Positions 36,015-37,167 of a DNA stretch of 64,000 nt are shown in pieces. The first letter of the stretch is position 1. Every line of letters starts with the position of its first letter. The DNA is from Antarctobacter albus (GTDB lineage Bacteria > Pseudomonadota > Alphaproteobacteria > Rhodobacterales > Rhodobacteraceae): assembly GCF_900101505.1 (NCBI RefSeq), contig NZ_FMZI01000017.1, positions 1 to 64,000 on the forward strand. Direction: 5' to 3'. Position numbers and translations under genes: made by a program. Below the pieces are notes generated by a model. The model was not told the DNA's origin, made no database searches, and saw only the letters and a list, made by a program, of their open reading frames with translations.

Positions 36015-36135
36015 GTCTTACCCCGTGGTTTTGCCATTTTCAGTGGCGCTTCCCTTGCGTTAGCGCAACCTCAGATCATGCAGCTGCACAGCAATCAACC
36101 TTAACTGCCAAGAATTGAACAGTTTTCATATGCAC

Positions 36136-36152
36136 TTTCTGCATAGCAGAAA
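36136..36152 (+). promoter_or_regulatory. Perfect inverted repeat upstream of the DUF1127-sRNA locus
   Basis: TTTCTGC-ATA-GCAGAAA, 7-bp arms around a 3-base centre, lies ~87 bp before the DUF1127 start in the divergent gap (36015-36238) with mrp. It may be an operator or a hairpin in the 5' leader. In Rhodobacter sphaeroides the equivalent locus is driven by RpoHI/RpoHII; I could not assign a heat-shock-type promoter here with confidence. Confidence 0.4.
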
Positions 36153-36238
36153 TGACGCCGTGGCCATTGTGCAGTCGCAGCATTTGCCCCATCTTTGTCG
36201 CAACCAAGGCAACGCACAGACACTGAGGCACGGAAATA

Positions 36239-36457
36239 ATGGCACATGCAACGGCGAACATCACCAATGCCCAAAGCGGTTTGGGCGCCCGCATTTCCGG
36301 GCTGGTCGCAACCTTTCAGGCACGCCGCGCCCGCCGCCGGGTCTTTAAACAGACCTACGCAGAGCTGGCCTCGCTGAGCAACCGCGACTTGGCCGATCTG
36401 GGTCTGGCCCGCAGCGAAATCTCTCGCATCGCGTGGCAGGCCGCCAACGAGAACTAA
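36239..36457 (+). CDS. ccaF1: DUF1127 small RNA-binding protein, CcaF1-like
   Basis: A 72-residue basic protein with the DUF1127 (YjiS-like) domain: 'RRRVFKQTYAELASLSNRDL' and 'ADLGLARSEISRIAWQAAN', arginine-rich and amphipathic. In Rhodobacter sphaeroides the DUF1127 protein CcaF1 is encoded directly upstream of the CcsR sRNAs on one transcript, binds RNA and affects sRNA maturation and RNA turnover. The gene here is the same size and sits 11 bases before the first CTCCTCC hairpin, so orthology is very likely. It is presumably co-transcribed with the whole array down to the terminator at 37113-37144, with the sRNAs cut out by RNase E-like processing. Confidence 0.88.
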   Translation: MAHATANITNAQSGLGARISGLVATFQARRARRRVFKQTYAELASLSNRDLADLGLARSEISRIAWQAANEN

Positions 36458-36468
36458 GCCTTTCAGGC

Positions 36469-36561
36469 GGGACGCTCCTCCTCCCAGTCCCTCCTGTTCT
36501 GGTGCCGGCTCCACTCTCCTCCCTTTGGAGCCGGCACCCAAAAGTTTCGGGGCATGACCCC
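36469..36561 (+). ncRNA. CcsR-like sRNA unit 1
   Basis: Hairpin 1: GGGAC (36469-36473) with GTCCC (36487-36491), loop holding CTCCTCCTCCC. Hairpin 2: a 12-bp stem GGTGCCGGCTCC (36501-36512) with GGAGCCGGCACC (36527-36538), loop ACTCTCCTCCCTTT. A small hairpin GGGG-CATGA-CCCC (36549-36561) follows. This unit is the most diverged in its loops and begins 11 bases after the DUF1127 stop. Confidence 0.8.
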
Positions 36562-36570
36562 AACACCATA

Positions 36571-36664
36571 TGCGGGTCCTCCTCCCATTCGGCCCGCAGA
36601 CAGAGCGGCGACACCTCTCCTCCTCCCTGGTGTCGCCGCACGAAATTCAAGGGTCGCATGACCC
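36571..36664 (+). ncRNA. CcsR-like sRNA unit 2
   Basis: Hairpin 1: TGCGGG (36571-36576) with CCCGCA (36593-36598), loop TCCTCCTCCCATTCGG. Hairpin 2: 11-bp stem GCGGCGACACC (36605-36615) with GGTGTCGCCGC (36629-36639), loop TCTCCTCCTCCCT. Small hairpin GGGTC-GCAT-GACCC at 36651-36664. Confidence 0.82.
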
Positions 36665-36677
36665 GAACGTGATGTCG

Positions 36678-36770
36678 GATCCCTCTCCTCCTCCCTGGGA
36701 TCTCGCATATGCGGCGGTGCCTCTCCTCCTCCCTGGCACCGCCGCGCAAGAATTCAGGGCCAAACGGCCC
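36678..36770 (+). ncRNA. CcsR-like sRNA unit 3
   Basis: Hairpin 1: GATCCC (36678-36683) with GGGATC (36697-36702). Hairpin 2: GCGGCGGTGCC (36711-36721) with GGCACCGCCGC (36735-36745). Both loops are the standard TCTCCTCCTCCCT. Small hairpin GGGCC-AAAC-GGCCC at 36757-36770. Confidence 0.85.
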
Positions 36771-36782
36771 ACAGATATGTCT

Positions 36783-36875
36783 GGTCCCTCTCCTCCTCCC
36801 TGGGACCTTTCATACGCGGCGGCACCTCTCCTCCTCCCTGGTGCCGCCGCACCAGATTTCCGGGCCTCGCGGTCC
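36783..36875 (+). ncRNA. CcsR-like sRNA unit 4
   Basis: Hairpin 1: GGTCCC (36783-36788) with GGGACC (36802-36807). Hairpin 2: GCGGCGGCACC (36816-36826) with GGTGCCGCCGC (36840-36850). Both loops standard. Small hairpin GGGCC-TCGC-GGTCC at 36862-36875, which needs one G-U pair. Confidence 0.85.
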
Positions 36876-36888
36876 GAACAACATGTCG

Positions 36889-36981
36889 GGTCCCTCTCCT
36901 CCTCCCTGGGATCTTGCATAAGCGGCGGTGCCTCTCCTCCTCCCTGGCACCGCCGCATCAGAATTCCGGGTCGCGCGACCC
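36889..36981 (+). ncRNA. CcsR-like sRNA unit 5
   Basis: Hairpin 1: GGTCCC (36889-36894) with GGGATC (36908-36913), one mismatch or wobble at the base. Hairpin 2: GCGGCGGTGCC (36922-36932) with GGCACCGCCGC (36946-36956), identical to the strong stem of unit 3. Both loops standard. Small hairpin GGGTC-GCGC-GACCC at 36968-36981. Confidence 0.85.
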
Positions 36982-36994
36982 GATCAATTTGTCA

Positions 36995-37063
36995 GGCCCC
37001 TCTCCTCCTCCCTGGGGTCTTTCAATGGCAGCGGCGCCTCTCCTCCTCCCTGGCGCCGCTGCC
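36995..37063 (+). ncRNA. CcsR-like sRNA unit 6
   Basis: Hairpin 1: GGCCCC (36995-37000) with GGGGTC (37014-37019), using a G-U pair. Hairpin 2: a 12-bp stem GGCAGCGGCGCC (37027-37038) with GGCGCCGCTGCC (37052-37063). Both loops standard. No small hairpin follows; 11 bases later the last single hairpin begins. Confidence 0.84.
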
Positions 37064-37074
37064 CAAATCAGTTT

Positions 37075-37144
37075 CGGGGCCCCTCTCCTCCTCCCTGGGG
37101 TTCCGTAGCCTCAGCCCGCGATGCACTGCATCGCGGGCTTTTTT
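37075..37144 (+). ncRNA. Terminal CcsR-like half unit with its terminator
   Basis: A thirteenth hairpin, CGGGGCCCC (37075-37083) against GGGGTTCCG (37097-37105) with G-U pairs, carries the standard loop TCTCCTCCTCCCT. Instead of a second CTCCTCC hairpin it is followed by the intrinsic terminator, so the final RNA would have one motif loop and one terminator stem. Confidence 0.75.
37113..37144 (+). terminator. Intrinsic terminator of the sRNA array
   Basis: A 12-bp perfect stem AGCCCGCGATGC (37113-37124) with GCATCGCGGGCT (37128-37139), 3-base loop, then six T residues (37139-37144). It ends the DUF1127-sRNA transcript 137 bp before valS. Confidence 0.92.
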
Positions 37145-37167
37145 CTGCGCTTTGGTCCGCCCGTAGG

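Follow-up and report, generated by a model that had tools for sequence, protein, structure and literature searches.

The window analysed here, a stretch of 64,000 nucleotides of Antarctobacter albus DNA, carries thirteen hairpins with anti-Shine-Dalgarno (anti-SD) loops directly behind a ccaF1-like DUF1127 gene. Our preferred account, to which we give roughly six chances in ten, is that an RpoH-type transcript holds ccaF1 and all thirteen hairpins, is cut into CcsR-type small RNAs (sRNAs) that silence selected mRNAs, and is gated by PhaR. The locus is thus best read as an RpoH/PhaR-controlled multi-copy sRNA operon that would damp acetyl-CoA production and nutrient uptake. The array itself is of a known kind; what is new are the PhaR-type boxes in its promoter, the conserved complementarity to the ribosome-binding site (RBS) of pdhA, and a series of array sizes across the family.

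A sequence scan placed the thirteen hairpins at 36464-37109, 3' of the DUF1127 gene and ahead of a strong terminator (Table 1); the first begins 7 nt past the stop of the DUF1127 reading frame. All thirteen loops contain CTCCTCC, ten share the identical 13-mer TCTCCTCCTCCCT, and CTCCTCCTCCC lies within eleven. The window holds 11 copies of CTCCTCCTCCC (0.07 expected), every one inside the array, which accounts for 11 of the 14 copies in the genome. Folding of the array RNA gave a z of -18.4 relative to shuffled sequences. A chance origin of the hairpin array is excluded. Tandem Repeats Finder (TRF) reported periods of 106 and 211, and the hairpins within a pair are spaced by 38 nt. The five linkers between units each carry an AU-rich stretch and then a small hairpin of the GGGYC..GRCCC type; at least four Watson-Crick pairs were found in this mini hairpin in 78% of 186 linkers from 77 loci, against 30% after shuffling. 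Direct reading of the sequence and the scans therefore bear out the anatomy given in the earlier note, which had described a DUF1127 gene, thirteen hairpins with ten identical loops, a period of about 105 (106 by TRF) and a strong terminator. A protein-coding interpretation was also considered, as a 198-aa open reading frame (36570-37166) crosses the hairpins; it was rejected because the unit spacings (about 102 to 108) vary in steps not divisible by three.

Table 1. Features of the ccaF1-array locus (positions in the window)
Feature	Position	Strand	Basis or remark
Promoter dyad ATGCA-N5-TGCAT	36130..36144	+	ATGCR-N5-YGCAT in 96/108 upstream regions vs 0-1 shuffled
PhaR-type box 1, CTGCATAGCAG	36139..36149	+	fits R. 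sphaeroides PhaR site CTGCNNNGCAG
-35 (TTG) overlapped by PhaR-type box 2, TTGTGCAGTCGCAGCA	36167..36182	+	
RpoH-like -10, CCCCATCTT	36187..36195	+	position conserved; CATCTT- or TATCTT-like in relatives
ccaF1-like gene, 72-aa DUF1127 protein	36239..36457	+	Pfam PF06568, 9.5e-13
Unit 1, anti-SD hairpins 1 + 2	36464..36538	+	sequence scan
Linker with AU-rich stretch and mini hairpin GGGGCATGACCCC	36539..36570	+	candidate RNase E site
Unit 2, anti-SD hairpins 3 + 4	36571..36639	+	the set of ten identical loops starts with hairpin 4
Unit 3, anti-SD hairpins 5 + 6	36672..36746	+	scan, covariation
Unit 4, anti-SD hairpins 7 + 8	36783..36850	+	scan, covariation
Unit 5, anti-SD hairpins 9 + 10	36883..36956	+	scan, covariation
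Unit 6, anti-SD hairpins 11 + 12	36994..37063	+	Rfam ar14 match 36984-37110 covers the unit
Anti-SD hairpin 13	37071..37109	+	scan, ar14 match
Similar linkers	36640-36671, 36747-36782, 36851-36882, 36957-36993	+	candidate RNase E sites
Loop motifs of the thirteen hairpins	36475, 36516, 36579, 36617, 36685, 36723, 36790, 36828, 36896, 36934, 37002, 37040, 37085		
Intrinsic terminator	37113..37145	+	12-bp stem (37113-37139 with loop of 3), T run

Does this array belong to a known sRNA family? The Rfam covariance model ar14 (RF02344) matched its last part with 64.7 bits, above the cut-off of 58.8, and a second match (36878-36990) scored 59.0 bits; four weaker ones are spread across the array, and all six hits in the genome fall within it. 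Because the match exceeds the threshold, we assign the array to the CcsR/cuckoo/ar14 kind, as the earlier note had proposed; the variable stems and CCUCCUCCC-type loops agree with that assignment, and the CIN1 arrangement, i.e. a position directly 3' of a short DUF1127 gene, is present. Cuckoo RNAs such as NfeR1 (SmelA075) and SmelA099 likewise combine one CCUCCUCCC per loop with variable stems and several hairpins per RNA. In the rhizobial reports (PMC3927594, PMC10746234), these RNAs have three or four hairpins each and occur in several genome copies, whereas here a single long array stands behind ccaF1; NfeR1 is described there as transcribed from an RpoD-type promoter. Caulobacter crescentus SisA-D are also multiple sRNA siblings, with a common 10-mer anti-SD motif repressing many targets, but they differ in promoter and expression and are not described as one tandem array.

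The array also resembles CcsR1-4 (RSs0680a-d) of Rhodobacter sphaeroides, tandem two-hairpin RNAs with anti-SD loops that sit behind ccaF1 (RSP_6037), a DUF1127 gene (PMC10253847, PMC8625941, PMC3320616). In that species, as reported, an RpoHI/II promoter co-transcribes ccaF1 and CcsR1-4, the CcsRs are induced by stress, they are processed by RNase E/PNPase and associated with Hfq, CcaF1 binds RNA and influences CcsR maturation, and the reported effects concern flhR and the pyruvate dehydrogenase complex (PDH). The operon described there ends at a terminator, as the present array does; it comprises four sRNAs, however, and the array here six and a half units, or thirteen hairpins.

The ar14 model gave few hits across the class (9 of 190), and those outside the family had 0-2 hairpins by our detector and no adjacent ccaF1-like gene. 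The model was thus too weak for a survey, and we used CcaF1 instead. By alignment search, a CcaF1 homologue occurs in 140 of 159 family genomes (one genome per genus), and a hairpin array lies directly 3' of ccaF1 in about 100 genera. We counted hairpins at the 110 loci that had at least two behind ccaF1. As the detector demands both TCCTCC and a stem, the counts are approximate and mostly minima: they range from 2 to 24 with a median of 8, and 16 of the 110 arrays have at least 13. The thirteen-hairpin array is therefore a typical large member rather than an outlier. The earlier suggestion of an enlarged cluster holds when R. sphaeroides, with its four CcsRs, is the reference, but not with respect to the family. 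Within the genus of the window we found arrays of 11, 13, 13, 13 and 17 hairpins, plus one with an assembly gap; this variation among relatives means that copy number shifts quickly, by whole units.

Three individual arrays merit description. The largest (L025; G165:C1:332500-338500, minus strand; 24 hairpins detected) is built of near-identical three-hairpin units of about 140 nt, and one more hairpin was probably missed in a 141-nt gap. Another (L041, G395:C1), of seventeen hairpins, alternates almost exactly between two types of unit, a pattern suggesting that a double unit was recently duplicated in tandem. In a sister species (L040, G384:C118), a run of N breaks the array; short-read assemblies may therefore misstate copy number.

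To avoid circularity, loops for the analysis of stem covariation were picked by loop sequence alone and their flanks were examined at fixed geometry, giving 263 distinct loops from 72 loci. Stem positions 2-11 paired in 68-95% of cases, compared to 40-64% with shuffled partners, and pairing was mostly lower with slid partners too. Per stem pair, both sides differed from the commonest pair in 25-46% of cases, and six pair types were present at most positions. The positions flanking the anchored TCCTCC core, by contrast, were 90-99% conserved among 857 hairpins. The stems are thus kept by compensatory change around constant loops, as had been claimed from the window; a finding of uncompensated stem changes had been named beforehand as the refuting outcome, and these 72 loci gave the contrary.

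With what might such loops pair? The earlier note had offered titration of the 16S anti-SD site as one mode of action. This has the direction wrong: the loops resemble the 16S anti-SD, so complementarity to it is lacking and titration is impossible. For the same reason, only SD-type GGAGG sequences of mRNAs can pair. The genome has 43 occurrences of the pattern GGGAGGAG-N2-10-ATG; the reversed pattern has 2. One GGGAGGAG site lies at the start of pdhA (CTGGGGAGGAGTGTCATG), a gene named from its own sequence (Pfam: E1 dehydrogenase component) and from a pdhB-like gene downstream. Others precede several transporter-type proteins, as judged by inspection, and further sites belong to SBP56, panB, an ilvD-type dehydratase, a universal stress protein and more.

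Complementarity at pdhA is conserved: of 50 genera, 27 have a pdhA RBS that matches the loop complement over 7 nt or more, compared to 11 of 281 control starts (Fisher p = 1.7e-17, a value that is only indicative because some control starts share genera). Among the controls, runs of this length were found for pdhB in 7 of 47 starts, mrp in 3 of 69, valS in 0 of 17, an ftsB-like gene in 0 of 31 and a DUF465-like gene in its one start (1 of 1). The ccaF1 RBS, likewise counted among the controls, is weak and had no such run in any of 116 starts, as if the operon avoided silencing itself. On these sequence comparisons, the pdhA RBS is the best conserved predicted target of the array, in agreement with the effect on PDH reported for the R. 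sphaeroides CcsRs. A match to any strong SD is open to every anti-SD loop, pdhB also scores somewhat, and strong expression could itself favour a strong SD; regulation of pdhA is thus supported but unproven.

We then turn to the promoter, for which 108 distinct ccaF1 upstream regions were compared. In this alignment the TTG of the -35 is invariant and the CCCCATCTT-like -10 is conserved, and no sigma-70 match was found at the ccaF1 promoter. An RpoH-type transcript, as put forward in the earlier note, is plausible on these elements; as a description it was incomplete, since PhaR-type boxes and a third dyad are present as well. The strict form of box 1, CTGC-N3-GCAG, occurs in 71 of the 108 regions (0.4 in shuffles). 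TGC-rich box 2 occurs in 101 (0.6 in shuffles), and its TTGTGCA-N3-GCAGCA block is nearly invariant (102/108). ATTGTGCA-N3-GCAGCA starts 28-29 nt after the start of CTGC-N3-GCAG, and a CCCCATCTT- or CTTATCTT-like -10 comes after it. The reported binding site of R. sphaeroides PhaR is CTGCNNNGCAG, and two PhaR sites flank the -35 at the phaP promoters of S. meliloti (PMC12542648). In S. meliloti PhaR also represses the sRNA MmgR. The ccaF1 promoter thus resembles those of the PhaR/AniA regulon of alphaproteobacteria (phasins, MmgR), with CTGCN3GCAG-type boxes flanking the -35, although box 2 is spaced differently from the CTGCN3GCAG described in the literature, and its TTGTG stretch may be there for the sigma factor. 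The available excerpts of the R. sphaeroides CcsR papers describe RpoHI/II control and leave PhaR unmentioned. Among the papers searched, none connects PhaR to CcsR; "PhaR" and "DUF1127" co-occur in a single one, a Rhodovulum genome comparison.

The genome encodes PhaR (PF07879 at C21:77301, 5.3e-27), with TGC-rich repeats 5' of the phaR start. Two adjacent phasin-like genes (L217 and L219; G000:C21:241115 and 241829), whose Pfam matches of 24.2 and 22.0 bits fall just below the cut-off of 24.9, each have a PhaR-type box pair around CTTGAAA, with a box spacing that differs from that at ccaF1. The pattern TGCTGCANNGCAGCA, used to search for PhaR sites, gave two hits only, neither at the ccaF1 promoter. 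TTGTGCANNNGCAGCA, with one mismatch allowed, was not enriched genome-wide over the control; box 2 as an exact word is therefore peculiar to ccaF1 in this genome. Two of 80 survey genomes, G003 and G150, are without PhaR, and neither has box 2 (p = 0.0066). This co-absence is suggestive of PhaR control, at the level of two genomes and against five counterexamples: box 2 is missing from seven of the 80 genomes, five of which retain PhaR. The arrays of these seven genomes (G003, G079, G055, G150, G045, G093 and G069) are short, with 2, 2, 2, 2, 3, 4 and 8 hairpins, respectively. Compared to the median of 8 elsewhere, this gives p = 0.002 with lineage uncontrolled; for that reason, and because no such relation holds for strict box 1, we do not rely on a connection between box 2 and array size.

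The boxes could instead belong to some other regulator, such as a second protein that binds dyads, with the co-absence of PhaR being coincidental. This bears on the promoter only and is compatible with our preferred account of the RNAs. The dyad ATGCR-N5-YGCAT, which overlies box 1, persists in both PhaR-less genomes and must therefore belong to another factor; the small number of those genomes and the five that keep PhaR without box 2 point the same way. Such a regulator would, however, leave unexplained the exact CTGCN3GCAG in so many upstream regions, the similar box pair around the -35 at both phasin-like promoters and the repeats before phaR. We consider it unlikely, if with a real chance of being right.

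Two other possibilities concern the RNAs. The hairpins could act as a general translation brake under stress, in which free anti-SD mimics compete with the 30S subunit on all strong SDs and have no specific targets. A loop that nearly copies the anti-SD, its amplified copy number and the stress induction described in R. sphaeroides would all fit; yet extended matches are rare (the 43 GGGAGGAG sites near ATG), target strength varies strongly among genes, and the known CcsR effects concern flhR and PDH. This makes a targetless brake improbable. Still a little harder to credit is that the array serves mainly as a CcaF1 sponge, its thirteen sites titrating that protein off other RNAs in the manner of CsrB/RsmZ, with mRNA pairing secondary. 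One RNA with many identical loops has the architecture of a sponge, ccaF1 lies directly upstream in some 100 genera, and the R. sphaeroides protein binds RNA and affects CcsR maturation. A protein site, on the other hand, needs neither an invariant loop part that is exactly anti-SD nor a conserved complementarity to the pdhA RBS; moreover, ar14-like hits beyond the family have no ccaF1-like neighbour, and CcaF1 can work via protein contacts too (PMC12501420).

In the operon that we favour, a single transcript from the RpoH-type promoter would span ccaF1 and the thirteen hairpins. By analogy with R. sphaeroides, RNase E, aided by CcaF1, would cut the AU-rich linkers to yield about six two-hairpin CcsR-type sRNAs; processing by RNase E/PNPase, Hfq binding and CcaF1-assisted maturation are presumed from that species. 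The loop UCUCCUCCUCCCU, resembling the 16S anti-SD tail, would pair with the extended Shine-Dalgarno sequence GGGAGGAG of selected mRNAs, predicted to include pdhA and several transporter genes, and block their translation. More hairpins would mean a higher dose of one effector, because the loops stay identical while the stems drift. PhaR, the sensor of PHB granules, probably represses or gates the ccaF1 promoter, and the array would therefore be released when PHB is present. Taken to its end, this suggests a PHB-responsive carbon valve, a tentative idea on which we would not yet wager: filled PHB granules would cause PhaR to release the sRNAs, which would shut the pdhA RBS and nutrient uptake and so limit acetyl-CoA inflow, the array being a family-wide dose device tuned by copy number (2-24 hairpins).

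Work on CcsR RNAs has so far centred on a single species, where they figure as four stress sRNAs. The CcsR-type operon now proves common across the family, its conserved promoter carrying PhaR-type boxes. The known effect of CcsRs on PDH thereby becomes a testable question: is the enzyme that supplies PHB synthesis controlled by an sRNA which itself answers to the PHB sensor? The size series, in turn, offers natural material for the question of why identical sRNA modules are multiplied in bacteria.
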